IMG/VR virus record: IMGVR_UViG_3300036045_000020
Location: 1 to 48,493 of that record
Source: a virus
Reading direction: 5' to 3' (one strand)
Length of the DNA: 48,493 bases
Positions 9,637 to 22,707 of the stretch are shown piece after piece. Both the position numbers and the translations under genes were made by a program. Position 1 is the stretch's first letter. Every line of letters begins with the position of its first letter. Below the pieces are notes generated by a model. The model saw only the letters and a program-made list of their open reading frames with translations, was not told the DNA's origin and ran no database searches.

Positions 9637-10710
9637 TTATGCAGTCGCGTCAAGCAGATTAAACAGTGTCGGTTGGCTCAGATGCACGTCAAGGTCTTCG
9701 AGAAACCGCGCTGCCACCATGTAGTAGCTGCGCTTGAGTTCAATCCCGATCCCGCGCCGCTGAAGCTTCAGCGCCTGATGCGGCACCGAGCCAATGCCGG
9801 CAAAATAATCCAGCACGAGATCGCCCGGATTGCTCCAGCGCGTGATACAGCGCTCGATGAGATCAAGTTGAAGCGGACAAATGTGCTTCTCGTCTTCGTT
9901 CTCCTTCGCCAGTCGCCCATTGAGCACTGCAATCCGGCTAATGTCCCACCAAGCCCACGCATTGTCAGTCGGCACCGGCTGGCCATGCGCGCGGCCCAGC
10001 TGCATCCGGCGATCCAGTTCTTCGAGGTACGCGACGTGTGCTGCATAGCTGTAGCTGTCCTGCTCGTATGGCAACAGTGACCGCTGGCCGTTGCTGCGCC
10101 AGAGACTATTCGCGTCGAGCTGCCAACGCGGGAGCGTATAGGCGTCTGCATCAAGCGTCACGCGGCTATCGCTCCACTGGCCGCCTTCAGCGGTCTTTGT
10201 GTGTGGCCGACGGAACAAAAGTAGGTACTCGGGCATGCCAACCCCGAAGCGACTCGCATCCTTTTGTAATTCGCTGTAGGGCAGGTTGTTCGTCTGGGCG
10301 TTCTCGCGCACGGGATCGGTTGCAACCGTGATACGTCCGTAATAGAGCCAGCCGTGCTTGCGCATCGCCGCGGTCACCTTGTCGCTGAACGGCTCGATGT
10401 GCCGAAAGCCATCGTTGCGGCTGCCGTAGATGATGCGATCCTTACAATGCACAATCGCAAAGCGGCCCGGGATTGTCACGCGCAGCAGCTCGGGGAGCAG
10501 GTAATCGCACTGCGCGAAAAAATCATCATCATCGTCACAGTTACCAAAATCGTTCAGCGATGGGCTGTACGCATACTGATCGCCGAACGGCCAGCTGGAA
10601 ATGGATAGGCCAATCGAGGCGCTGGGCAGGCCTGGCAGGGCCAGCACGCAGTCGCCGTGGTAGAGCGCATAGCGCTCGCCAAAAGCACTTTCAAAACATT
10701 GTCCGGTCAT
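9637..10710 (-). CDS. DNA methyltransferase, beta-class N4/N6 type
   Basis: 357 aa, ATGA overlap with the upstream gene. Motif order is catalytic first, SAM-binding last: LSISSWPFGDQYAYS at residues 34-48 takes the position of motif IV, and VLDYFAGIGSVPHQAL near 311-326 is motif I with GIGIELKRSYY following. This order and the size match phage COG0863-type DNA methylases. Related phage enzymes carry SPPF at motif IV; here it reads SWPF, losing the first proline. It probably methylates adenine or cytosine amino groups, perhaps to protect phage DNA. Activity with the altered motif is uncertain. Confidence 0.82.
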   Translation of the reverse strand: MTGQCFESAFGERYALYHGDCVLALPGLPSASIGLSISSWPFGDQYAYSPSLNDFGNCDDDDDFFAQCDYLLPELLRVTIPGRFAIVHCKDRIIYGSRNDGFRHIEPFSDKVTAAMRKHGWLYYGRITVATDPVRENAQTNNLPYSELQKDASRFGVGMPEYLLLFRRPHTKTAEGGQWSDSRVTLDADAYTLPRWQLDANSLWRSNGQRSLLPYEQDSYSYAAHVAYLEELDRRMQLGRAHGQPVPTDNAWAWWDISRIAVLNGRLAKENEDEKHICPLQLDLIERCITRWSNPGDLVLDYFAGIGSVPHQALKLQRRGIGIELKRSYYMVAARFLEDLDVHLSQPTLFNLLDATA

Positions 10711-11936
10711 GGCAGTATCACCCTTCCCAAATCGCTAAAGGCTTTAATGAAGCCACACACGTTTACGCCGTAGTACGCCACCGTTTGGGCTTTCTTCGCC
10801 TGGCCGCCCTCGCTGCCGTCGGCGCGCAGGAAACGCAACCGCTCGCGCAGCATGACCACTGGGCGCTGTCGCCACAACTCTTCCCACCAGACGTAACCAG
10901 GAGCGGTATTCACAAGCAGTACAGCTGTCTCAATCTCGCCAAACACGTACATTCGCTCCAAGTGGGCCACCCAGGTCGGTGTATCATCAAAGGGTGGGTT
11001 GAGCCACACGCGACCCTCCCACGGCCGTGCCAAACCCGACATGAGTTCGTCTGCGGTGTAGTAGATCCGCGCCTGAATCCACTGCTGCGCAACATCGCAG
11101 CTTGCAGGGTCAAGATCGATCGAGCCACCCAGAGCGCGCCGCGCTCGCTCAATGATGTGCGGCGGGGTGTACCAATCGTTGGTTGCCTGAGAGGTCAGCA
11201 CCTGCATCGACTGCTTCACGCGGCACGCTCCATCCACTGATGCTGGCGTGGCCGTCGCCACGAGTTTAAACAAGGTTGCGGCGAACATCGCCGTCAGTTG
11301 GCGGTTCGTCGCACCGACCATATTGGCGATGATGTCAGCCTCGTCGAGCGCCATACCAGACCAGGCTGCACCATCAAACTGATCAACGCAATCGTAGTTT
11401 GTGACCACGAGCGCGCAGCCGCTGGCGTCCGCCTCCGCTTGCGACCGTGCGTAGGCCAGATCAAGGCCAAGGGCAGGCGCTTCGTCGCGCACAAACTGGT
11501 GCGCGACCGCCAGGGGTGTGATGAGCAAACAGCGCCCGCTGGTGTGTGCAGTGACGAGGCGCATCCACTCCAATATCTGGCGCGATTTACCAAGGCCCGT
11601 ATCTTCAAAGAGGGCTGCGCGCCCACGCGCACAGGCCAGCTGAATCGCGTGGCGCTGAAACGGGAAGAGCGACGGGTGAAGGTCGTGATCAGCGACCTCG
11701 AAGCCAACCGCTGGCGGTACAACAGCGCGTTGCGCAAGAAACTGCGCATACGCGTGGCGCGTCGGTGCCTTGTGTGACGGTGCGCTAGGCTCACAGTTTT
11801 TTCGTAATGCTGTTGGGGTTGGCGCACCACGACTACAACCATCGCGAGACGCACGCCAGTACTCACCATGTGGTCTGTTTTCGCGCTGAATAGCCCAGCC
11901 TGCTACATAAAAACGTTGCATCTCGTAGTACCTCAT
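10707..11936 (-). CDS. Fusion of truncated SF2 helicase domain and Dam-type adenine methyltransferase
   Basis: 409 aa, ATGA overlap with the gene upstream. Residues ~85-235 form the first RecA-like domain of an SF2 helicase: FQRHAIQLA, Walker A EDTGLGKS (111-118), DEAD-type box ALDEAD (196-201) and motif III ATATP (227-231). The second helicase domain is absent. Immediately after comes a complete phage N6-adenine methyltransferase of the Dam/PF05869 kind: MQVLTSQATNDWYTPP (244-259), motif I SIDLDPAS (272-279) and motif IV WLNPPF (311-316). Met244 looks like the start of a former independent gene (ATG at 11207), though no good ribosome site precedes it. A deletion joining two neighbours is the simplest explanation. 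Confidence 0.82.
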   Translation of the reverse strand: MRYYEMQRFYVAGWAIQRENRPHGEYWRASRDGCSRGAPTPTALRKNCEPSAPSHKAPTRHAYAQFLAQRAVVPPAVGFEVADHDLHPSLFPFQRHAIQLACARGRAALFEDTGLGKSRQILEWMRLVTAHTSGRCLLITPLAVAHQFVRDEAPALGLDLAYARSQAEADASGCALVVTNYDCVDQFDGAAWSGMALDEADIIANMVGATNRQLTAMFAATLFKLVATATPASVDGACRVKQSMQVLTSQATNDWYTPPHIIERARRALGGSIDLDPASCDVAQQWIQARIYYTADELMSGLARPWEGRVWLNPPFDDTPTWVAHLERMYVFGEIETAVLLVNTAPGYVWWEELWRQRPVVMLRERLRFLRADGSEGGQAKKAQTVAYYGVNVCGFIKAFSDLGRVILP

Positions 11937-13126
11937 TCCAACGTCAGCAACAACTCTTGCCGTGTGCGCTCATCGATCACCTGTGGAATGAGCTTCGTCG
12001 CGTCAGGATCGGCATCACTCCACTTGTTTGGATATGTGCGTGCAGCGATCAACTCGCGGATACGCGCCTCTTCCTCAGCATTGATCAGATCAATATGCGC
12101 AAGCCCTTGCACATCAGCAGCTGTGTTAACCTCGGCCTGAATCGCGAGCACCTCGCCCAGTGCTCGGACACGCGCCGCCAGCGTAAGCGGCCCTTTGCGG
12201 TTCGGATTGGCGCTCAACTTGCCGTCCTTGTTTCGTTCGCCGTCCTTCTGCTTGCGATGCTTAAACTCGCGTAGCTCGCGGTTCAGTGGTCGCACGCGCT
12301 TGAGCGGCGCAAGATAGCTCCAGTCGGGTAAACTCAAAAGATAGTCAAGCGCCAGATCACGTTCAGCAAGCGCACAGCCGATGCAACCTGTGCGTGCGTT
12401 GAGTTCGATTGCCTCATCGCCGCCGTAGACTTGCGCAACGAGCTTCGTCGGCAACCCGTGCAATTTTGAGGCTGTCAAAAAGTCCCAGACGTTGCACACG
12501 CGCCAGTGTAAAAGCGGCGCAAGCGTATCAGCAACTGCGTGCGGCAACGTCTCCTGAAACCAGCCCTGGCCACATTCTCCAGCATTGCGCCCACAACTTA
12601 TTGCAATGCGCTCGTCGCGTGCCGCACTTTCTCCCACGCGCACCCCGGTCAACATCAGAAATTTCTCACCGTGCTGATCACGCAGCGCTTTGAGTGCTGC
12701 GGCCATCGGCTCGACTTTGAGTTGCGGCGTACACCAGCGCAGCGTGTTGTTATTCGGCGGTGGTACACCGCGCCCAAGTACATACACCCAGTAGCGGTCA
12801 TCCAACTTTGGCAGTACAACCTGCGTTTGCACACCGCGCGCGTGAAGCGCATCCAGCATCGCCATCGCACCAAGATGGAGCGGCGGCAACTCCTGCCGCG
12901 TATCGGCATAGAGCACCGTTAGGCTGTCAGGCGGGCTCAAACGGCCTTGATTAATGAGGTAGAGCACAGCTGCGACCGTCGCACTGGAGTCTTTGCCGCC
13001 ACTATACGCAATGGCCCAATGGCGATACTTAGCGCCATACGCAGTAAGGCTCTGCGCAGTAAGATCAAGTGCATCAGCAACGCTTTGACGTGCGTTTTCA
13101 AACAGGCTCAGTTGATGACGGCTCAT
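11933..13126 (-). CDS. DndC/PAPS-reductase-like PP-loop protein
   Basis: 397 aa from the ATG at 13126, which overlaps the upstream stop as ATGA. The PP-loop SGGKDS (residues 42-47) binds ATP in adenylating sulfur-transfer enzymes. YADTRQELPP (73-82) follows as in PAPS reductases and DndC. TGVRVGESAARDER (160-173) and paired cysteines TGCIGC (247-251), plus C132, resemble the Fe-S-binding cysteines of DndC, the DNA phosphorothioation sulfurtransferase. Phages often carry such proteins without the rest of the Dnd set, and none of DndB, DndD or DndE is visible here. It sits among two methyltransferases and a nuclease, suggesting a nucleic-acid modification role rather than sulfate assimilation. 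Confidence 0.8.
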   Translation of the reverse strand: MSRHQLSLFENARQSVADALDLTAQSLTAYGAKYRHWAIAYSGGKDSSATVAAVLYLINQGRLSPPDSLTVLYADTRQELPPLHLGAMAMLDALHARGVQTQVVLPKLDDRYWVYVLGRGVPPPNNNTLRWCTPQLKVEPMAAALKALRDQHGEKFLMLTGVRVGESAARDERIAISCGRNAGECGQGWFQETLPHAVADTLAPLLHWRVCNVWDFLTASKLHGLPTKLVAQVYGGDEAIELNARTGCIGCALAERDLALDYLLSLPDWSYLAPLKRVRPLNRELREFKHRKQKDGERNKDGKLSANPNRKGPLTLAARVRALGEVLAIQAEVNTAADVQGLAHIDLINAEEEARIRELIAARTYPNKWSDADPDATKLIPQVIDERTRQELLLTLE

Positions 13127-13560
13127 CGTTCCAATGCCCTCCGTAGCAGTGCAACGCATTCAGCCCCGTGTTGCCGAAGTGCGCTGCCACTAAAGCGCAG
13201 CACGCGCCACCCTAACGCAGCAGCACTGTTCAACTTCTCGCGGTCGCTATCGGTGTTATGCCGCCCGCCGTTTGCGAGATATTGACCGCCATCAAGCTCC
13301 ACGGCGACGCGCTGATCAGGCCACGCCCAATCAAAGCGCCACTGTCGCCAGGGCTGGGCAAAGGAGTACTCTGGCTGACCTGTGGGCACATCGGCCCCGT
13401 GCGCTATCAAGGCCTCGCTCCACAATGCTTGCAGCGGGCTTGACTCGGCAACAGAGGCAGGCGCTGCAACTGGCTCCTTGCGCTTTTGCGTCGTGTGCAG
13501 CGCTGGGTTCAGCCGCTGCACGTCGTCGCTCATTGGCGGAAGGCTGTCAAAGTGTGGCAT
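13123..13560 (-). CDS. Small PD-(D/E)XK-type endonuclease
   Basis: 145 aa from the ATG at 13560, which shares one base with the primase stop (TGATG). The core WRFDWAWPDQRVAVELDGG with RHNTDSDREKLNSAAALGWRVLRFSG downstream matches the DUF559/Vsr-like nuclease family: Asp in FDWAWPD, then E-x-D in VELDGG, and the conserved 'K-N-x-A-x-x-x-GWRVLRF' strand. Phage members of this family are thought to resolve or trim DNA in replication and recombination. The first ~45 residues are linker-like. It is coupled to the PP-loop gene downstream by ATGA. Confidence 0.82.
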   Translation of the reverse strand: MPHFDSLPPMSDDVQRLNPALHTTQKRKEPVAAPASVAESSPLQALWSEALIAHGADVPTGQPEYSFAQPWRQWRFDWAWPDQRVAVELDGGQYLANGGRHNTDSDREKLNSAAALGWRVLRFSGSALRQHGAECVALLRRALER

Positions 13561-14531
13561 CACGCTGCCGCCTTTCTGCCCTGCATCAGCGCCCACCCTA
13601 GATCCGCTTTGGGCGGCGTTCCCTGAGGCCACTGGTAGACGGTGGCCTTGACCCCTGCTGCAAGCAACTCGTTGGCAATCTGCGGCCCCTTGCGCTCTGG
13701 CGCGGCGGGCATCACCTTAATCTTGCCTGCTGCAATGCGTGCAAGCATCTCCCCCCGCCACTCCTGTAACAATTGCTGGTACGTGGTGGTGTTCCCACAA
13801 CCAACCATGTCGTTATCTAACCACACCAGCACATGCCGGGGCCTGCTTGCAGCGATCTGCTGTGTCCATTCGCTACGCCACGCCACGCCGCCCCCGGCCA
13901 ACGCTACAACCCCCGGCTCAGCCTCTTGGGCCAGTAGACAATCAACCATGTTCTCGGCAACAATCACCACGGCCCCCGGCCTGAGTGCGGCGGCGTTGAA
14001 CAGTACATCTTTGCGCGAGCCCCCAGCGGTGAGCCACTTGGCATCGCTGTCGCCGTCTCGGTAGGCGCGACCGTGAAACGCCACGACCTGACCGCCAGCG
14101 TAGACCGGAACAATCAGGCGGCGCACAGTGCAGCGTGAAGACGGCAGCACACCGACGCCCAACCGGTAGCGGGCGATCGTATCTATCAACAAGGGCTTAT
14201 AGCCTTGCCAGTCTATAAGGCGCGTGGAAGCCTCGCAAAACTGCTGAACGTAGCGATCGGGTGCGAGCTGCCAGCGGCGCGGCGGGGCAGGCTCCTGGTA
14301 GCGCTGAGTCCGCTGTGGGGCCATGCCCGCACACCCCACCTGCTCGGCCAACACCTTGAGGCCACCCTGTGCGCCGCACACCCAGCACACATAGCCCTCG
14401 GCAACAAACGAAAAATGCTTCTGTGACCGCTTGGCCTCCTTGCCGCAGAACACACAATCCGCGTGATACCGCCCGTCGCGACGCAGTTCAGCGCCAAGTT
14501 GATCAGCGAGAGTCGTAAGAAGATTTGTCAC
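13560..14531 (-). CDS. DNA primase with zinc finger and TOPRIM domain
   Basis: 323 aa. The GTG at 14531 is chosen: it lies 1 base after the DUF488 stop and has a G-rich ribosome site (AAGGGGGTG). A CHC2-like zinc finger comprises C26, C29, C49 and C52. The TOPRIM part contains VIVAENMVD (E193) and VLVWLDNDM (D239, D241), the acidic residues that bind metal. It would lay down RNA primers at the phage fork together with the helicases at 16003 and 18820. It is shorter than DnaG and lacks a DnaB-interacting C-terminal domain or an attached helicase. Confidence 0.87.
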   Translation of the reverse strand: MTNLLTTLADQLGAELRRDGRYHADCVFCGKEAKRSQKHFSFVAEGYVCWVCGAQGGLKVLAEQVGCAGMAPQRTQRYQEPAPPRRWQLAPDRYVQQFCEASTRLIDWQGYKPLLIDTIARYRLGVGVLPSSRCTVRRLIVPVYAGGQVVAFHGRAYRDGDSDAKWLTAGGSRKDVLFNAAALRPGAVVIVAENMVDCLLAQEAEPGVVALAGGGVAWRSEWTQQIAASRPRHVLVWLDNDMVGCGNTTTYQQLLQEWRGEMLARIAAGKIKVMPAAPERKGPQIANELLAAGVKATVYQWPQGTPPKADLGWALMQGRKAAA

Positions 14532-14532
14532 G

Positions 14533-15165
14533 TCACACCCCCTTGCTCCACTGACGCCCGTGTTCACAAGTAGCAAAGTGCGTAAGGGCCTCGCGCTGCC
14601 CGCCCTCACCGCGTGTCTTCGCCAAGTCAAGCGGGATCGCCTTGCCGACAGCGGTGCGCGTCCAAACGATCGCAGCGCCGCAGCTCTTGCAGGTCGTGGG
14701 CTGCTCACCGTGGGGAATGGGATAGTAACCGTCGGTAGAAACGGCGGCCGTCTCGGGCTTTGGCGGATACAGGTGCTCAATGTCGGGCAAGCCCGTGCCA
14801 TCAATCAGACCAAAGCGGTCGGCCAAAAACTCAGCAGCCGTTTTGCGGTGACACTCGCCGTGCTCCTTGCAACCACACATCAGGATGAGCGGCCCACGGC
14901 GCACGGCAAGCTCGGCGCGGTTCAAGCAGGCTTCGGGGGCGGCGAGAACGATGGGGCCGTCGTTGTTGTAGTTGCGGTTGCCCAAAGCTGGCACGTGCTC
15001 GTAGCGAGTGCCAAGCAGCTCCCGCAGGGCCTCGCGCCGCCACTGCGGTGCGCGCGAGCGCGGGCTGTAGCGGATGTCCCAGAGGAGCGCTCCACGCTCA
15101 CCAACGGCCGCCTTGAGTTGCTCCGGTTTCCAACCGCTGTACCCAATGGTGTAAAGACGTGTCAT
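14533..15165 (-). CDS. DUF488-domain protein with C-terminal zinc-ribbon-like segment
   Basis: 210 aa, ATGA overlap with the upstream gene. The N-terminal ~120 residues match DUF488: RLYTIGYSGWKPEQL, LLWDIRYSPRSR, and LMCGCKEHGECHRK, whose Cys-His cluster is characteristic of the family. The C-terminal part has CKSCGAAIVW and CEHG, a possible zinc ribbon. The molecular function of DUF488 is not settled. Its placement beside an ASCH protein and the PP-loop/methyltransferase genes is compatible with work on modified nucleotides or RNA, but this is inference. Confidence 0.82.
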   Translation of the reverse strand: MTRLYTIGYSGWKPEQLKAAVGERGALLWDIRYSPRSRAPQWRREALRELLGTRYEHVPALGNRNYNNDGPIVLAAPEACLNRAELAVRRGPLILMCGCKEHGECHRKTAAEFLADRFGLIDGTGLPDIEHLYPPKPETAAVSTDGYYPIPHGEQPTTCKSCGAAIVWTRTAVGKAIPLDLAKTRGEGGQREALTHFATCEHGRQWSKGV

Positions 15166-15467
15166 AATAGTGGTTTTCCCTCGTTCCAGGCCTTGAGTCG
15201 CTCGCGCTCGGCTTGCTGCTCTGCTTCCAAGGCTTGGCGCTCCTCTTCCTCGATCTCCGGTGGCTTAGTCACCACTGCCACCCCGTAGCGAGCAAGCTGT
15301 TTGCGGTAGTGCCAGGCCACTTTGGTCAGTGCCGAGCGCTGGCGCTCGCTTAATTCCCTCTCGGGCGGGAAGGTCGCCAGGTCGTGGACGAAGCGCTTTG
15401 TCCACGACCCCGACTGAAACGAGCAGCGGGCCAAGGCCTGGATGGTGCGGTAGTCGCTCTCGTTCAT
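15162..15467 (-). CDS. Hypothetical phage protein
   Basis: 101 aa from the ATG at 15467, coupled by ATGA to the ASCH gene upstream; its own stop overlaps the DUF488 start. It is highly helical and charged: a middle helix-rich block (RELSERQRSALTKVAWHYRKQLARYG) and a Glu-rich tail (EIEEEERQALEAEQQAERERL). I recall similar small proteins near replication genes in other phages but no assigned function. A DNA- or protein-binding accessory role in the replication operon is possible. Confidence 0.68.
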   Translation of the reverse strand: MNESDYRTIQALARCSFQSGSWTKRFVHDLATFPPERELSERQRSALTKVAWHYRKQLARYGVAVVTKPPEIEEEERQALEAEQQAERERLKAWNEGKPLL

Positions 15468-16003
15468 GGCTGCACCCAATCCTCGATTGCCAGCTCCGTC
15501 AGATCGCCGACCCAGCGCAAACCTTGACCGCCTTTATGCGGTAACGGCTCACGCAGCGGACGCACATCGGACAGCATCCACAGCCAGCGCCCTGCGCGGT
15601 AATCGCCGAACAGGTACTCGTGCTCCTCCAACAGGCACTTGGCCGCTCCTCCTTGCGCGCTGGTGTAGGCCACCGTGTCGCCGGGCACCACGCCGTCGCC
15701 AGTCGGGGTGTAGCCGTTGAGCATGCAGACCGCGACAATGACGCCACGCGGCAGGCCGTCAACAATCGTGTCGACCAACGAGCGCTCAGGTATGTGCATG
15801 AACTGATCAACAAGGGCGGAAAAGAACGGCTCGGTCGTAACCGTCCGGCGCAGTCCGCGCCGACCACCAATCGGCCCCAGGCCCTGCGCAGCGTGGATAG
15901 CCAGCGGCCCCGTGTAGCTGGTACGCCATGAACGGGTTTCAATCTGCTTGGCCCCAATTGCCACCAAAGTGGCCCAGGGCTGGGTCAAGGAAAGCACTCG
16001 CAT
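15464..16003 (-). CDS. ASCH-domain protein
   Basis: 179 aa. ATG at 16003 is preferred over GTG at 16006 because AGGAGG sits 7 bases upstream; the gene overlaps the helicase stop. The N-terminus (RVLSLTQPWATLVAIGAKQIETRSWRTSYTG) is a clear ASCH fold with the QPWAxxI/V and IETRSW motifs that line the RNA/nucleotide-binding cleft. YxPTGDGVVPGDT and WMLSDVRPL complete the barrel. ASCH proteins bind RNA or modified nucleosides; some cleave N4-acetylcytidine. Here it lies in the replication/modification operon. Substrate unknown. Confidence 0.85.
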   Translation of the reverse strand: MRVLSLTQPWATLVAIGAKQIETRSWRTSYTGPLAIHAAQGLGPIGGRRGLRRTVTTEPFFSALVDQFMHIPERSLVDTIVDGLPRGVIVAVCMLNGYTPTGDGVVPGDTVAYTSAQGGAAKCLLEEHEYLFGDYRAGRWLWMLSDVRPLREPLPHKGGQGLRWVGDLTELAIEDWVQP

Positions 16004-18759
16004 CACGCGGCCTCCTGAAGCGCACTCGCGGCCTGAGCAGCGTCATAACGCCCGATGGCTTGTCGTGCTTGGTAGTAGGTAATCAGGTTGGCAGCGGCCC
16101 CCGCCGTGAGTTCGGCTATCGCGGCCCGCTTCATGTCGCCGCGAGCCAGCTTCGCCAGCCAGTTCGCCTGGTTCTCGCTGATTGGCCGCTGCTGCCAACT
16201 GCGGCCCTTGGTACCAAGTTCGCGGGCCGCATGCTGTACAGCCAATGCCTCACCTTTGACAAAGGGATCTTCAGCTGGCAAGGGCCGCGCGGCCCAGGCC
16301 CCGACCGATTTCCAGCCACCGTCGGCCTGCTGCTCGCCGTTCCGCCAGATGGCCCACAATTGCCGATCGCGGATAGCCAAGATGCGCTCAATACCGTCAC
16401 TGCCCCGCCCACAACCAAGTGTAAGCAAGTCGTCGTGACGGTACCAGGTAAAAGGACTCTGCTCCAAGTAGCGCAATTCTTTGGCAACAACCTGTAAATC
16501 CACGCCGTTCGCATCAAATGCCTCGCCATCAAACGTAAAGCCGATCTGGGCTACGCCAGGCTCACGCTGCTTAGCCAGTTGCCGGAGCAGTTCCTCGCGT
16601 GGAATGGGGCAGCCGAGGATGTCGCCAAGCATCGCCACGTTGCGGGCGTTCTCGGGCAGGTAGTCGAGGATTAGGCAGTCGGTCTTCGCCAGCGTGGGCC
16701 GCAGCCCACGACCGATCATCTGGATGTACAGCCCGTCGCTTTTGGTTGGTCGAGCCAAGTGGATACAAGCAATCTCCGGCACATCCAACCCCTCTGTCCA
16801 CAGGCCGCACTGCCCCATTACAACAACATGCCCATTGCGACGAGTAATAATCGTGTTGGTTTGGTTTGTCACACACCAAACCTCTTCATCCAGCCAATCT
16901 GATTCAAATTGCGCTGGATTACCCCCGCTTGTCAGAACCGTGTGATTGTTGGTCTGTACCCACGCCCGATCTCGAATTCGCAACTTGCCAATAACTTGCT
17001 CTTCTCCATTTGGCCCAACACCGTTTGATCGTCGTGTTAGCTTGGAGGCAAAGCCTCGTACTGCGGCCCATACCTGCAAACGGTCAAACATAGTCCAATC
17101 GTTGCCAATAATTGTTGGTGAATCACCAGGGCGCGTGGTTCTGTGGTACTTCTCACCGTCCCCAACCCATAAACCATACACAACACGCTCGAATTGCGCC
17201 CGCGTGCAATTGGTAAGATTTGGTGATAGTGACTTATCGATCCAGGCGTGAATTCGTCCCCATCCATTTCTTTGTAGCTGACCGCCAATACCCCCCTTTG
17301 GTATTCGATAGCGGCGTTTGAGGTATGCACCTTTGTTTGTCTCCTGAAACGTTTCAGATACTTTCCAGTCAAAACCACATCCATCAAGAATGCGTTCAAT
17401 CTCGCTACACATTGCGCTATTAGCGGCTTGAACAATCTCAATGCTTGCCCGCTTTTGGTTCAGCGTGCCATCTGTTGCAAAAATTCCAAGAAACTCTAAT
17501 TCGGCATCGGTCAGTGGCACGCCATCAAAAACCTCAACACCTGCCAACGGCAATTGATAGTGTCCGTTCGCATTGGGAAGTTTGCCAGCTTCGGCAAACC
17601 TCCATCGCACGCCAGACGAGGATCGCACAAGCATGTGATGGCCTTCAGTAACGCGAATATCAAGTGTTTGGTTTTTGAGATACACCATCCTCTCTTGGGG
17701 ATCGCGCCGCCGCCGCACAATGCGCGAAATTGGTTCCCATGTTACGTGTCCTGTATTTGGGTCTACCGCCGCAGTTGTGTCGTCTTCTTGGATGTCATGC
17801 ATTCCTAGCCATCCACGGCGTGTAAGAATTTCGGTTTGACTATCGAGACAATTCACCAAGACTTGATACGTCCCAGCCCGGAAGTCGGCGAGGATCTGAC
17901 GACGCACAACCTTGTCGGTACCACCGTCGGCACTTGCTGCGGTAAAGCCGGCGGCGCGAAAGTCGGCGGCTAGGTCGTGTGCTCCCTGGACACTTGTGGT
18001 AAAGGCAATTGCGGGCCGATCGGCGGCCAGTTCGCGGTGGGCGGCCACAACCAGGGCCCGGCAGGCCGGGGTGTCAAAGCGCTCGGCCAGCTGCTGCTGC
18101 TGAAAGTCGCCGCCCACGGTGCGTACGCCGCTCAGGTCGATGTGCGTCGAGATGGCGTACCAGGTGGGCTTCACCAGGTACGCCTCGCGCACCAGGTCGG
18201 CGATTGTGATGGTAAAGGCCGTGGTGTCGAAGGCGTTGGCCATGGCCAGCCCGTCGCCTCGCATCGGCGTGGCCGTAACACCAAGGTGGCGCAGCGCGGA
18301 GTTGGCCGCGCGCAGCCCGTCGCACACCTTCAGGTAGGCCGGGGCAATCGCGTGGTGGGCCTCGTCGGTGATCAGGTAGTCGACCGGGCCGTGGGCCAGC
18401 AGCTTCTTCAGATGCGTCTCACGACTCAGCGTCTGCACCGTAGCGACAGTCAATTGACGATCATAGTCCTTTTGTTCGCCCATCAATAAGCCCAGCCGGG
18501 GGCAACTCAATGCGCCGTTCGTCAGCCAGTCGCCACCAACGGCGCGGAGGCGCTCAATCGGCTGATGGATCAATTCCTCGCGGTGGGCAAGAATCACTGC
18601 CCGCTGGCCGTTTTGCAGCACGCGCAGCAGCAAAGCAAGAAAAATGACCGTCTTGCCCGCGCCAGTGGCCGCAACCCCCAGCACGTCGCGCTGGCCATTG
18701 TTCCAGGCCGTGATCGTCGCGGCAATTGCGTCAGTCTGATAGGGTCGAAGCTGAAACAT
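16003..18759 (-). CDS. SF2 DEAD/DEAH-box helicase interrupted by an intein
   Basis: 918 aa precursor; about 571 aa after splicing. Helicase parts: Q-like region LRPYQTDAI (4-12), Walker A ATGAGKT (31-37), DEAH box DEAH (132-135), motif III TATP (162-165), motif V split by the intein after VLVN (residue 303) and resuming at CGLWTEGLDVP (651-661), and motif VI QMIGRGLRP (680-688). The C-terminal ~200 residues are an accessory region with W-rich RHDDLLTLGCGRG. It probably unwinds DNA during replication or recombination (UvsW/RadD-like). ATG at 18759 is preceded by GAGG. It heads the coupled run ASCH-DUF488-primase. Confidence 0.92.
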   Translation of the reverse strand: MFQLRPYQTDAIAATITAWNNGQRDVLGVAATGAGKTVIFLALLLRVLQNGQRAVILAHREELIHQPIERLRAVGGDWLTNGALSCPRLGLLMGEQKDYDRQLTVATVQTLSRETHLKKLLAHGPVDYLITDEAHHAIAPAYLKVCDGLRAANSALRHLGVTATPMRGDGLAMANAFDTTAFTITIADLVREAYLVKPTWYAISTHIDLSGVRTVGGDFQQQQLAERFDTPACRALVVAAHRELAADRPAIAFTTSVQGAHDLAADFRAAGFTAASADGGTDKVVRRQILADFRAGTYQVLVNCLDSQTEILTRRGWLGMHDIQEDDTTAAVDPNTGHVTWEPISRIVRRRRDPQERMVYLKNQTLDIRVTEGHHMLVRSSSGVRWRFAEAGKLPNANGHYQLPLAGVEVFDGVPLTDAELEFLGIFATDGTLNQKRASIEIVQAANSAMCSEIERILDGCGFDWKVSETFQETNKGAYLKRRYRIPKGGIGGQLQRNGWGRIHAWIDKSLSPNLTNCTRAQFERVVYGLWVGDGEKYHRTTRPGDSPTIIGNDWTMFDRLQVWAAVRGFASKLTRRSNGVGPNGEEQVIGKLRIRDRAWVQTNNHTVLTSGGNPAQFESDWLDEEVWCVTNQTNTIITRRNGHVVVMGQCGLWTEGLDVPEIACIHLARPTKSDGLYIQMIGRGLRPTLAKTDCLILDYLPENARNVAMLGDILGCPIPREELLRQLAKQREPGVAQIGFTFDGEAFDANGVDLQVVAKELRYLEQSPFTWYRHDDLLTLGCGRGSDGIERILAIRDRQLWAIWRNGEQQADGGWKSVGAWAARPLPAEDPFVKGEALAVQHAARELGTKGRSWQQRPISENQANWLAKLARGDMKRAAIAELTAGAAANLITYYQARQAIGRYDAAQAASALQEAA
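16810..17850 (-). other. Intein with LAGLIDADG-type endonuclease in the SF2 helicase
   Basis: Residues 304-650 of the helicase (347 aa). It begins with Cys (CLDSQTEILTRRGW, block A), has block B TEGHHMLV (371-378), and two degenerate dodecapeptides LGIFATDG (424-431) and YGLWVGDG (528-535) of a LAGLIDADG homing endonuclease. The C-terminal end is RRNGHVVVMGQ followed by Cys+1 (651). The last residue is Gln where most inteins have Asn, and the preceding residue is Gly instead of His; Gln-ending inteins are known but uncommon. The insertion site is the conserved helicase motif V. Confidence 0.92.
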
Positions 18760-18791: not shown

Positions 18792-18841
18792 AAACCGTGG
18801 ATCAGTCCTATAGATATTCTTATAGGACTGATCCACGGTTT
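18792..18841. repeat. 21-bp perfect inverted repeat overlapping a stop codon
   Basis: Arms 18792-18812 (AAACCGTGGATCAGTCCTATA) and 18821-18841 flank an 8-base loop (gatattct). The right arm contains the last codons of the helicase at 18820 and the stop lies at the loop edge. On the transcribed strand the hairpin is followed by CTCTTCAAAAAA rather than a U run, so it is not a textbook terminator. It may attenuate transcription between the two helicases, stabilise the upstream mRNA end, or be a recombination site. Arms are shown without mismatches. Confidence 0.7.
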
Positions 18842-20805
18842 TCAGATCGCAAAGGGTTGACACACGCGCGAACGAAAGGCCCGCGCGTGGCCGAGGGTAC
18901 TGGCTCAATTTCCCGCCAGCCCTGCGCAAGTAGCCCCTCAAACCACTTTGTGGCCGTCTTCCTGTCGGTTTTCAGTTCGCTTGTAAAATCCTGCGTCGTT
19001 ACCCGGCCTACGGCCACCGCACGGGCGGTGGCCACGCGCAGCACCTCCGGCCACCGATACGGATCAACACCGTCGGGCGCGTCAAACAATTGATGTAAGC
19101 TCACCAATTCGACAGGGATACCAGGCAGTGGCACGTTGGTTAGCAGCCACACGTCAACTGACCGGCGCAGCGGTCGAGCGCGATGCAGTGCCTGCACAAG
19201 CTCCGCTTCGCGCACTTGCTCAAGCAGCACCTGCAGGTCGTGGTCGTTCCAAAATCCTGCGACGGGGTAGGCCCAGGGCTGACCGGGAAACGGCCGATCC
19301 TGCGTCGTCCAGGTGACATCAAAGGGACGGTCACGCTCGCTGTACACCATCGTGGCGGTCGTGACCACGTCATCTGTTCCGGGTTGCGGGGTGCCAATGA
19401 CAATGAGGCAATCACAGTTTTGCAGGCGGTTGGTACCTCGACTGCCGTGAAAGTGGGCAGCGGCAGCGTTTGCGCCAAATACCTGAAGCAAATCTTTGTA
19501 CGTGACATATGCAGGACGCTGATAACCACGGTTGAGAATAGCAGCAACCTGTGCCTGAACGTGCTGTAACTTGGGGCGTCCGTCCGCCGCAGGGCCAACG
19601 TCCGTTTTGGTGTTGAGACTTGCCCACACCTGGCGCACGCGGCCCTGCAATTGCACATCGGGCCGAACAATCTTGACGGAACGGTTAAGCAGTTCACGAT
19701 ACAGCGGCCCCGAGGCCGTCGCGTCAAGCCAGATGACATGCGGCGGCAAAAAGCGCGGTCGCCGACGCAGCAGCAATGTGAGACCGCTGGTGTCGATGCG
19801 CACCCGTGGGATCGCGTCGACACCAGCGAGCTGGGCCTCAGCCTCCCGCTTCAGGGCATACAGCGTGTGGAACAGATGGCCGTAGGGCGCCTGCTCGGCG
19901 GCGTCGGCGTGGCGCAGCTCGGGCGGCTCGATCTCGGCGAGTGCCACCTCGCCGCAGGCCTGCGCAACAAGGCGGGCTCCGCCCAGGGCGGCCAGCAGGG
20001 CCGGCCCGCTCCACACACCGCCCTCGCGCGGCGTCATCGCCAGGCGGCGCAGCCCCCGCATCAGCTGCTCGCGCGGGCCCTCGTCCATCCCGGCAGGGAT
20101 CATGTCGCCGGCCGGTATGTGCCACGGATGTAAAAAAGCGCGCAAGGGAAGCTCATCGCCAATGAGCAGGTCGGTTTGTTCAAGGCGCGGGTGCCCTAAG
20201 GCCAAATGTTCGTATTGGGCATAGATGATAGGCTCGCTGCGGTGTGCTTGCGCATGCCATGCACACTGCTGATGGATGTAGCTCCACCCGCAAATGCGCG
20301 GATTGGCGCAAAAATCCAACGCGGGATAGCCGCGCCGCATCCACTGCTCAATGTGCGATGCATAGCGACATGTTTGACCAGCCCCTTGCCCCTGCCCCAG
20401 GGTGCGCGGCAGCCAGTTGTACCACCATGACGGGCGCTGCATAAGTGCCTGCAGATCGCTGAAAAAGTCGCGGCGTGGGCCAAGATAGAGGACACGGCCT
20501 GCGCCTGCAGCACACGTTTCAGCCGTTTCCACGGCTATTGTGGTTTTGCCGATCCCAGCTGGCGCAGCAATGAGCAGGACGTGATCCGGTGCTGGATCGG
20601 CCAAATAGGTTGTGATGGCATCACGGATCATCTGCTGCCCCTGATCTAAAGTTAATGTGCCGTACTGCTGTCTGTCTGGCGGTGCGGGTCGAAGCCCCCG
20701 TCGGCGTGGGCTTGGATCGAACGGCTCAGGCTGAAGCACACGTTCGGGCAGTGTGGGCGCTGGCTGCTCCAACTCAGCCAGCGCCTGGGCAATGACGTTT
20801 GTCAT
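18820..20805 (-). CDS. Putative Fe-S superfamily 2 helicase (XPD/DinG-like)
   Basis: 661 aa, 3 bases after the Bet stop. Walker A IAAPAGIGKTT (79-89) and a DExx box GDELP (216-220). Between them four cysteines, C146, C166, C172 and C181, have spacing close to the Fe-S cluster of XPD/DinG helicases (the last pair is C-x8-C). LDATAS (360-365) serves as motif III and QALHRARP (538-545) as motif VI. A winged-helix-like C-terminus is suggested by VTTQDFTSELKTDRKTATKWFEGLL (~607-632). It likely unwinds DNA alongside the neighbouring primase and second helicase. The helicase class is inferred from motifs; the Fe-S cluster is a hypothesis. Confidence 0.72.
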   Translation of the reverse strand: MTNVIAQALAELEQPAPTLPERVLQPEPFDPSPRRRGLRPAPPDRQQYGTLTLDQGQQMIRDAITTYLADPAPDHVLLIAAPAGIGKTTIAVETAETCAAGAGRVLYLGPRRDFFSDLQALMQRPSWWYNWLPRTLGQGQGAGQTCRYASHIEQWMRRGYPALDFCANPRICGWSYIHQQCAWHAQAHRSEPIIYAQYEHLALGHPRLEQTDLLIGDELPLRAFLHPWHIPAGDMIPAGMDEGPREQLMRGLRRLAMTPREGGVWSGPALLAALGGARLVAQACGEVALAEIEPPELRHADAAEQAPYGHLFHTLYALKREAEAQLAGVDAIPRVRIDTSGLTLLLRRRPRFLPPHVIWLDATASGPLYRELLNRSVKIVRPDVQLQGRVRQVWASLNTKTDVGPAADGRPKLQHVQAQVAAILNRGYQRPAYVTYKDLLQVFGANAAAAHFHGSRGTNRLQNCDCLIVIGTPQPGTDDVVTTATMVYSERDRPFDVTWTTQDRPFPGQPWAYPVAGFWNDHDLQVLLEQVREAELVQALHRARPLRRSVDVWLLTNVPLPGIPVELVSLHQLFDAPDGVDPYRWPEVLRVATARAVAVGRVTTQDFTSELKTDRKTATKWFEGLLAQGWREIEPVPSATRGPFVRACVNPLRSENRGSVL

Positions 20806-20808
20806 TGC

Positions 20809-22707
20809 CTATGCTACAGCGACGGTCGCGTCGACCGCCTCTCCCACCACTGCCGCCTGAGCGGTGTCGGCTGCTGCCGTATACACCGCCCCCCAGTCGC
20901 GAATCTCGTCAAGGCTCATCCCTGCAACGGCTGTCTTATCCGGTAAGGGTATATCAGCACCGGCCTTCTTTGCGCGTCTGGCGGCCAAGCGCATCGTATT
21001 CAGTGCTGCCTCGCGCTCGGGATCGACCTCAACAGTGGGTGGGGCTATCAGCTTCTTGATTGGAGGCATCGCATCAGCATTGATTACCTCACCAGTACGC
21101 ACGTCCGACGGTGGGGCTGCGGGGAGTGTCGGGCGGTGCGTGTGTTGTACAACCGCCACAGGCTCGTCGCGGATCTCGTCACTGGTGTACAGTCCGCTCA
21201 TGTCCGCTGGAAATGCGCGGCGCAGGGCCAGTGCCTCCGCGCAGTTGCCACAAAGCATTGAAAAGCCATTGCGGCGCACGACAATTACACCAGAGGGCAC
21301 GGTGACGCACCACACATTGCCCGATTCGTTGTTTGGCTGAAGGGCTAGCCCCGAACGCCTTTGACCTCGCTTAAAATCGTTGTAGTCACGATTCCAGCGC
21401 ACCACGGGGATTTCAGAGCGCGTGCTGATGGTCACGTAGTAGTTTGGCTTCGTGCCAATGTCGGAGGTTCGGCTACGGCGCTTGCTTACACTGTACCCAG
21501 CCACGACACACGCAAGCTCAAACGCCTCAATGTGGTCAAGGCGTGACGTGTAAAATCGTCGTACACCACTGCCCTGCTGATGACCATCGAAGGCGATGAG
21601 TGTGTCAACGAAGATGCGCGCTTCGCGCTGGGTAAGGTTAAGGATCTGTTCGGTCTGAATAACTTTCCCTGGCGCAACCAAAGGTTCAATCATCGTACGG
21701 GCAATGTGTCGGTAGACAAAGCGCGTCTTATCAGTTTTAGTCGTGATGGTGCGTGTTGCAGTGTGGGCAATATCGCCGGCGGTGTGCCGCACCTGCTCAT
21801 CCTCTGCCATATTGTTTGCGCGCAAAAATGCAATTTTGTGGGGGCGTGACACTTCTATCTTGAAGCCCTCGATCGTATCGGCCCCATCCGCAATATAAGC
21901 AGCAGCCAGCTCGATCGCCGTTTTGGTAAGCGCGGCAAACACCTTTGATCCGGTAACGCAGCGAGGTATCCACCAGCGAGGGCGCGTGCGCGCCATGTGG
22001 TACATCGTACCAGCCTCTACCTTGCCATCGGTTGTGACCATATCGTGATTGGGCGTGACGCAAAAATTCAAATCATCGCTGTCAAGTATGACCATATCGC
22101 CGTGGTATTCCTGAACAAATGGCTGTGCGTCGGTCGTTTCGAGGCCGTTGTCAACGACCTGCAATATTCGCCCAGTAACCTGGCTGAACTTCTGAAACCC
22201 GCAGTCGGTCAGCACCTCGGTTTGATCGTCAAAACACTTCGCGAGCATAATGTGGGGTTTGTCGGCCCACATCTGCGTTGGCGTGCCGTCCTTTTTCGTT
22301 TGCACGTATTCCTCGTAATGCGCCGTGGCCGCGACCTCGTGCCACTGGCCGCGCACGTATTTCAAAATGTAGGCTGTTGCGCTGTGTAACTGCCCAGCGG
22401 TGTCATATGTGTATGTCGGCGCGCGCCCTGGCGCATAGTTCCCCGTGCGGTCAGCAATCAGGCGCAACCCGTCAATGCCCGTTTGCGGCTGACGACTGGT
22501 GCGCCACTGGCCGTCGACGTTCTGGCGGCGCTCAATCAAATAAATCTGACGTGAGAACGGATCCAACCCTGATCGTTGCGCAAGCGAGAGAAACAGCATC
22601 AATTCGTCATCGCTTGCACCTTTGGCAATGGTATCCTTGACCAGTTCAACCTTCGCGTGATCAAAGCCCGTCGCATCAGCAATACGGGCTAACGCTGTTG
22701 TGCTCAT
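20809..22707 (-). CDS. bet: Bet/RecT-family single-strand annealing protein with an intein
   Basis: 632 aa precursor; about 301 aa after splicing. The N-terminal part (DDELMLFLSLAQRSGLDPFSRQIYLIERR, then QPQTGIDGLRLIADRTGNYA) and the post-intein part (CAEALALRRAFPADMSGLYTSDE) are diagnostic of the phage lambda Bet family, which anneals complementary strands for recombination-dependent replication. The intein splits KPHIMLAK from CAEALALR, the most conserved helix. No exonuclease partner (Exo/RecE) is recognisable nearby. The gene sits between the sigma factor and the Fe-S-type helicase in the early operon. Confidence 0.92.
   Translation of the reverse strand: MSTTALARIADATGFDHAKVELVKDTIAKGASDDELMLFLSLAQRSGLDPFSRQIYLIERRQNVDGQWRTSRQPQTGIDGLRLIADRTGNYAPGRAPTYTYDTAGQLHSATAYILKYVRGQWHEVAATAHYEEYVQTKKDGTPTQMWADKPHIMLAKCFDDQTEVLTDCGFQKFSQVTGRILQVVDNGLETTDAQPFVQEYHGDMVILDSDDLNFCVTPNHDMVTTDGKVEAGTMYHMARTRPRWWIPRCVTGSKVFAALTKTAIELAAAYIADGADTIEGFKIEVSRPHKIAFLRANNMAEDEQVRHTAGDIAHTATRTITTKTDKTRFVYRHIARTMIEPLVAPGKVIQTEQILNLTQREARIFVDTLIAFDGHQQGSGVRRFYTSRLDHIEAFELACVVAGYSVSKRRSRTSDIGTKPNYYVTISTRSEIPVVRWNRDYNDFKRGQRRSGLALQPNNESGNVWCVTVPSGVIVVRRNGFSMLCGNCAEALALRRAFPADMSGLYTSDEIRDEPVAVVQHTHRPTLPAAPPSDVRTGEVINADAMPPIKKLIAPPTVEVDPEREAALNTMRLAARRAKKAGADIPLPDKTAVAGMSLDEIRDWGAVYTAAADTAQAAVVGEAVDATVAVA
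21244..22236 (-). other. Intein with degenerate LAGLIDADG motifs in Bet
   Basis: Residues 158-488 of the precursor (331 aa). It starts with Cys in block A (CFDDQTEVLTDCGF), has block B VTPNHDMV (217-224), candidate dodecapeptides LAAAYIADG (268-276) and FVDTLIAFDG (366-375), and ends RRNGFSMLCGN before Cys+1 (489). The penultimate residue is Gly rather than the usual His. Both endonuclease motifs keep an acidic residue at the expected place, so DNA cleavage may persist. The terminal block (V-I-V-x-R-R-N-G) is similar to that of the intein in the SF2 helicase. Confidence 0.9.

Follow-up and report, generated by a model that had tools for sequence, protein, structure and literature searches.

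The 48,493-base virus record IMGVR_UViG_3300036045_000020, analysed here over its full length (hereafter, the window), encodes tape measure, terminase, integrase, RecT-like and sigma-factor genes and, on its minus strand, a tightly packed early operon that includes the gene for a PP-loop ATP-pyrophosphatase resembling DndC. In the order of transcription, the operon encodes a RadD-type helicase, an ASCH protein, a short open reading frame (ORF), a DUF488 protein, a primase, a nuclease, the PP-loop protein, a protein that combines a RecA1 lobe with a Dam-type domain, and an N4/N6 methyltransferase (MTase). A first-pass annotation had grouped two methyltransferases, the DndC-like protein, the nuclease, the DUF488 protein and the ASCH protein into a possible nucleic-acid modification module coupled to the primase. 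All the named genes are present, and the coupling was borne out: at most of the junctions, adjacent genes overlap by 4 bp (ATGA-type) or by a few bases. The observation is real but bundles too much together; what is of value in it is the PP-loop family, with the place of this family in cyanobacterial dnd islands.

The PP-loop gene starts with an ATG at 13126 that overlaps the preceding stop codon as ATGA; a longer ORF extending to 13159 is probably not used. In the searches of the window proteins against Pfam, PHROGs, NCBIfam and PADLOC, its product matches phrog_12882 over nearly the full length (E 2e-151) and PF01507 with 38.6 bits (cut-off 22.5). The best-matching curated model is that of DndC (TIGR03183), at 117.1 bits against a cut-off of 290.4 and 678.6 bits for a true cyanobacterial DndC; the PADLOC models for the SspD and BrxP PP-loop proteins match more weakly than DndC, and the CysH equivalog PRK02090 yields 19.7 bits (cut-off 154). 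The protein is 27% identical to a Salmonella DndC lying in a dndBCDE operon. In the phylogenetic tree, the DndC sequences form a clade of their own (support 100), with the phage-type PP-loop proteins outside. Relatives were detected in 16 phage records, 11 of them matching over most of the length, including phages of Pseudomonas, Rhizobium and Microcystis. In IMG/VR, at least 122 stretches hold a relative, as do at least 88 in GTDB genomes. Judged by sequence, this is a widespread family, sister to DndC yet distinct from it.

The window protein carries the SGGKDS loop, which is retained across the family except for Gly54 in a few copies, and six cysteines, Cys143, 189, 196, 222, 259 and 262 (numbered on the 408-aa ORF). 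All six are present in 85/85 viral copies. In a wider set, they are likewise present in 60/60 phage copies and 23/23 dnd-linked copies, the sole exception being C196 in one of 49 other genomic copies. Whereas C143, C259 and C262 occur in 6/6 DndC sequences, C189, C196 and C222 occur in none of the six. The further cysteines that DndC carries ahead of its CxxC (in the Salmonella protein, ECP and SCGNSRFGC) have no match in the window protein, where the aligned stretch reads GDEAIELNARTGCIGC, and the ECG motif of the protein is internal (195-197), not C-terminal. A passage of PMC10853773 reports a 4Fe-4S cluster on three cysteines of DndC together with a distinct cysteine dyad, so the layout would fit a DndC-like enzyme with an altered second site. 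The resemblance to DndC noted in the first-pass annotation is real, but the protein belongs to a separate family. One locus (L059:5917-9173) encodes a tandem pair of PP-loop proteins, the first with an intein-like domain.

The AlphaFold model, built from a 63-row alignment, has a mean predicted local distance difference test (pLDDT) score of 85.5 and adopts the PP-loop ATPase fold, overlapping CysH, GMPS, NcsA, LarE, TtuA and TilS; it is poor at residues 175-194, which include Cys189. Structure searches returned generic PP-loop matches only; no solved DndC structure surfaced, which is uninformative either way.

In phages, the PP-loop gene is associated with DNA methylases. We compared 50 dereplicated records containing this gene with 30 control records containing an ASCH relative, taken as an accessory early gene. 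DNA methylases were found in 40 of the 50 PP-loop records and in 10 of the 30 controls; for C5 MTases, the counts were 33/50 and 7/30, and for N4/N6 MTases, 25/50 and 7/30. A methylase lies within 3 kb in 28/50 and 5/30 records, respectively (Fisher p 0.0009, only a guide because the records differ in length and share phylogeny; the control distances were derived by hand). Within the PP-loop records themselves, methylase matches are 8-10 times denser at distances of up to 3 kb from the PP-loop gene than elsewhere. Isolates show the coupling directly: Rhizobium phage RR1-A and Pseudomonas phage Dobby each have a PP-loop gene that overlaps the gene for a C5 methylase, and in phiC725A and Mae-JY29 methylase genes follow it. 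Most of the C5 methylases near the PP-loop gene (L031, L073, L077, L083 and others) have the motif IV SP[DE]C..[HF]S.A[KR]GG, with an extra residue between the proline and the catalytic cysteine relative to the canonical PPCQ. One C5 methylase (L075:8883-11465) is seemingly interrupted by an intein just before the catalytic cysteine (...VVANCTNHSLAKG). In 10 loci, a gene for a DUF5131 (phage Gp37-like) protein (cluster c3, e.g., L016:2547-3269) is found no more than 3 kb from the PP-loop gene.

The second context of the family is cellular. The GTDB scan returned 80 loci, all with proteins 45-63% identical to the window PP-loop protein and 37 of them cyanobacterial (hand count). In 27 to 29 cyanobacterial loci, dnd genes are located at most 8 kb from the phage-type PP-loop gene; DndE is encoded in 21 loci, DndD in 20 and a TIGR04096-like protein in 23, and the same loci also hold a separate, true DndC, a DGQHR protein and a HARE-HTH protein. 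The partner of about 700 aa was named by NCBIfam (TIGR04096, 'phosphorothioation-associated putative methyltransferase'), whereas PADLOC and Pfam gave no name; in about 20 loci, its gene is head-to-head with the phage-type PP-loop gene. For example, the locus of Cyanobacteria FACHB-502 (L138) encodes TIGR04096 (867 bits, cut-off 150), the phage-type PP-loop protein, HARE-HTH, the DGQHR dnd protein, DndE, DndD and the true DndC, with DndE, DndD and DndC each exceeding its curated cut-off. The presence of a separate true DndC in this island indicates that the phage-type protein is a second PP-loop component rather than DndC itself. In two loci, a HARE-HTH-like stretch and the PP-loop domain share a single ORF (L137:7992-9467 and L187:7992-9107), hinting at a natural fusion; a passage of PMC10853773 describes HARE-HTH as a recogniser of modified bases. 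Of 292 evenly sampled cyanobacterial genomes, four contain the phage-type protein; all four encode TIGR04096, adjacent and head-to-head in three. In the tree, the dnd-linked copies form one clade nested within the phage copies, and the first branch to this clade is a prophage copy from Lyngbya HA4199-MV5, a genome that also has a dnd-island copy. Given this nesting, in what is a quick tree, the simplest reading is capture from a phage into a dnd island, probably followed by mostly vertical descent.

The two methyltransferases of the first-pass annotation both score above the Pfam cut-offs, but they do not represent two ordinary methyltransferase genes. In about 25 phage loci that hold a related PP-loop gene, an SNF2-type helicase precedes an N4/N6 methyltransferase, mostly within one polypeptide of about 810-910 aa, and the window's two METHYLTRANSFERASES are best described as one such helicase-methyltransferase protein, rearranged. 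The product of the upstream gene matches aa 3-176 of the phage protein (the first RecA lobe) and has, at aa 62-235, an SNF2-type first RecA lobe with the GLGKS, LDEAD and ATATP motifs. The second RecA lobe (about aa 178-460 of the phage protein) is missing from the window, and its place is occupied by a Dam-type adenine methyltransferase domain (aa ~245-390; PF05869, 33.1 bits, cut-off 28.1; NPPF at aa 313). Past the Dam domain, the reading frame stops, and the N4/N6 methyltransferase gene starts at an ATGA; its product is collinear, in the same order, with the C-terminal part of the phage protein (about aa 465-870) and matches PF01555 with 66.9 bits (cut-off 26.7; motif IV, SWPF). A scan of viral contigs with six peptide patterns, a narrow test, detected no second chimera of this kind. 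Sequence alone is compatible with a functional enzyme bearing two methylases and also with a relic in decay.

The rest of the proposed gene set (Table 1) does not recur with the PP-loop gene. The PD-(D/E)XK nuclease and the DUF488 protein (42.3 bits, cut-off 22.2) were correctly identified at first pass, whereas the ASCH protein scores 19.2 bits, under the PF04266 cut-off of 21.2, with the G.K..E(T)R.W signature kept in 24 aligned relatives. The check proposed in the first-pass annotation, a search for the gene set in other phages, was run, and the six-gene set does not recur; only the PP-loop/methylase pairing does. Two viral relatives of the DUF488 protein were found, neither with the remaining set; no PP-loop gene is carried by the two DUF488 or the 32 ASCH loci; and relatives of the nuclease occur in other phages without the remainder. 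Hence, a six-gene module is rejected, and what survives of the proposal is the link of the PP-loop gene to DNA modification, through methylase enrichment and the cyanobacterial dnd islands.

Table 1. Genes of the minus-strand operon of the window
Feature	Coordinates	Strand	Remarks
RadD/ResIII-type helicase with apparent intein	16003..18759	-	head of run, coupled upstream of ASCH gene
ASCH (PUA-like) protein	15464..16006	-	phrog_3193; PF04266 sub-threshold
Short ORF, no assigned function	15162..15479	-	inside same run
DUF488 protein	14533..15165	-	PF04343
DNA primase, zinc-ribbon and TOPRIM-like	13560..14531	-	likely GTG start at 14531
DUF559/MTES_1575-type PD-(D/E)XK nuclease-like protein	13123..13560	-	PF04480; ATG start 13560
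PP-loop ATP-pyrophosphatase, putative phage-type DndC-like sulfurtransferase	11933..13126	-	phrog_12882, PF01507
Chimera, RecA1 lobe and Dam-type domain	10707..11936	-	PF05869
N4/N6 DNA methyltransferase (N6_N4 MTase)	9637..10710	-	PF01555

At the head of the operon, the RadD-type helicase contains an intein-like insert of ~346 aa (16810-17850, minus strand) that begins with a cysteine (VNC|LDSQTEIL) and ends with ...VVVMGQ|C; its relative in the locus L007 is far shorter (569 aa). Further upstream on the same strand are a 661-aa ATPase-like protein without a clear family (18820-20805), conserved with the helicase in L007, and a 632-aa RecT-like annealing protein (20809-22707) whose long C-terminal part matches only weakly. 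A tRNA search of the window found none.

Taken together, these observations lead us to favour, with a probability of about 0.4, the reading that the PP-loop protein is a DndC-superfamily sulfurtransferase acting on DNA alongside a methyltransferase. Under this reading, the protein would adenylate its substrate with ATP via the SGGKDS loop and obtain its sulfur from a cysteine desulfurase of the host, such as IscS. The conserved cysteines would carry the sulfur, with C259/C262 and C143 as DndC-like iron-sulfur or relay positions and C189, C196 and C222 as a second, family-specific set. The sulfur would be placed on phage DNA at or near the sites of the co-encoded S-adenosylmethionine (SAM) methyltransferase, for which the candidates in the window are the RecA1-Dam protein and the separate N4/N6 MTase, and the resulting mark would change the way a host nuclease or reader views the phage DNA. 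The DUF488, ASCH, nuclease and primase genes would be co-transcribed neighbours rather than fixed parts. In cyanobacteria, the family, probably captured from phages, would serve as a dnd-island accessory paired with the putative methyltransferase TIGR04096. Defence against host restriction, the role suggested at first pass, is plausible. A more far-reaching proposition is that this phage-origin family performs DNA sulfur modification that needs a methyltransferase instead of DndD and DndE, and that it was later domesticated in cyanobacteria, where it supplements the phosphorothioation islands; the sulfur might, for example, sit at methylated bases or be combined with them. We consider this proposition as a whole unlikely.

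Several results weigh against a sulfurtransferase working on DNA with a methyltransferase. Only one of 80 related phage C5 MTases, from the loci nearest one seed sequence, has a PP-loop gene within 6 kb, so an obligate pairing with phage C5 methylases is rejected, and in 21 of the 50 PP-loop records none of the three methylase families searched for is represented within 3 kb. No DndD above the cut-off and no class-V aminotransferase (desulfurase) was detected in the 50 PP-loop records, and the sulfur would therefore need a host source. Models built for this analysis detected neither DndE nor DndD in the 85 PP-loop phage loci or in the window, in agreement with the first-pass annotation for the window, and also no TIGR04096-like gene in either. 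With DndD, DndE and the desulfurase all not found, a complete phage Dnd system is rejected, and phosphorothioation by a Dnd complex is unsupported for the phages. In cyanobacteria, TIGR04096 is present in 83 of the 292 sampled genomes, mostly without the phage-type protein, which makes the latter an accessory. Finally, the methyltransferase partner in the window itself may be decaying, because its helicase half lacks the second RecA lobe.

Among the alternatives, the one with the best claim, although we still regard it as doubtful, is that there is no joint system at all, only an early operon of unrelated accessory genes, the methylase association being a matter of accessory-gene clustering. 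The six-gene set does not recur, the neighbours of the PP-loop gene vary widely (terminase, primase, resolvase, ParB) and the reverse association with C5 MTases is weak; nevertheless, the methylase enrichment exceeds that in the ASCH-control accessory set, and the head-to-head pairing with a methyltransferase is conserved in cyanobacteria. Less probable still is a counter-defence function, in which the protein would mimic or hijack DndC and join host DndD, DndE and IscS (or the Ssp or BREX-4 machinery), so that the phage DNA gains the host sulfur mark or the complex is poisoned. That a sister of DndC with three common cysteines has no Dnd partners of its own in phages, and lies beside dndCDE together with a true DndC in cyanobacteria, is what such a function would lead one to expect. 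However, the family is spread widely among phages that infect Rhizobiales, Bacteroidota and Pseudomonas, and it has kept its catalytic loop and six cysteines, although a mere decoy could do without them.

The fold common to NcsA, TtuA and TilS and the iron-sulfur-type cysteines would also suit a TtcA/NcsA/TtuA-like enzyme that thiolates RNA or nucleotides, aiding phage translation or nucleotide pools. We rate this slightly lower again, given that phage copies are surrounded by genes for DNA methylases, helicases and primases and cyanobacterial copies by dnd genes, and that DndC is the nearest among the curated models. An assimilatory 3'-phosphoadenosine 5'-phosphosulfate (PAPS) reductase, that is, a cysH auxiliary metabolic gene, is a frequent annotation of such genes and would account for the above-threshold PF01507 match and the overlap of the fold with CysH, but appears highly improbable: the CysH equivalog score is far from its cut-off while the DndC model yields 117 bits, the protein has ~150 extra C-terminal residues, a different cysteine set and an internal ECG, and the family is located in dnd islands. 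On the model scores and the cysteine layout, CysH identity is rejected.

Over these alternatives, we prefer DNA sulfur transfer alongside a methyltransferase, under which phages may alter their DNA, or its recognition, with sulfur. To our knowledge, the only systems known to modify DNA with sulfur are cellular, namely dnd, ssp and BREX-4. Iyer et al. in 2013 reportedly predicted roles in DNA modification for ASCH readers and phage PP-loop enzymes. A widespread DndC-related phage family, represented in isolates, with its own cysteine set and repeatedly found beside methyltransferases, makes phage DNA sulfur modification directly testable and calls into question the routine labelling of such phage genes as sulfur-assimilation (cysH) genes. 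DndC- or PAPS-reductase-like genes have been noted, as annotations or curiosities, in Sinorhizobium prophages (PMC12429752), podovirus AP-20-A (PMC13299392), a Thermus phage (PMC11437467) and Mycobacterium abscessus prophages (PMC8092301). Cyanobacterial dnd islands, for their part, gain a second PP-loop component with a methyltransferase partner, of which the parts of the dnd papers PMC10853773 and PMC8569181 covered here make no mention.

Among known systems, CysH shares with the phage-type protein the PP-loop fold and PF01507, but differs in its cysteine set; the phage-type protein is far below the CysH equivalog cut-off, has an extra C-terminal domain and resides in neighbourhoods of DNA enzymes. 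SspD and BrxP of the Ssp and BREX-4 phosphorothioation systems belong to the same superfamily, with scores clearly lower than that of DndC. The phage helicase-methyltransferase (phrog_16/phrog_62) has the RecA1 lobe and the methyltransferase half in common with the two window genes, which have Dam in place of lobe 2 and are two genes rather than one. In cyanobacteria, TIGR04096 provides this PP-loop family with a SAM methyltransferase partner; it is absent from the phage loci, and the window methylases do not belong to its family. DndC itself differs in that the phage-type protein falls below its cut-off in a separate clade (100), lacks the further cysteines of the DndC cysteine-rich stretch, has three extra invariant cysteines and occurs in phages where DndD and DndE were not found. 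It is also the closest match: the two proteins share SGGKDS, the RWCT cysteine, C-x2-C and ~27% identity over most of their length, and, in cyanobacteria, the phage-type protein is linked to the dnd genes themselves.

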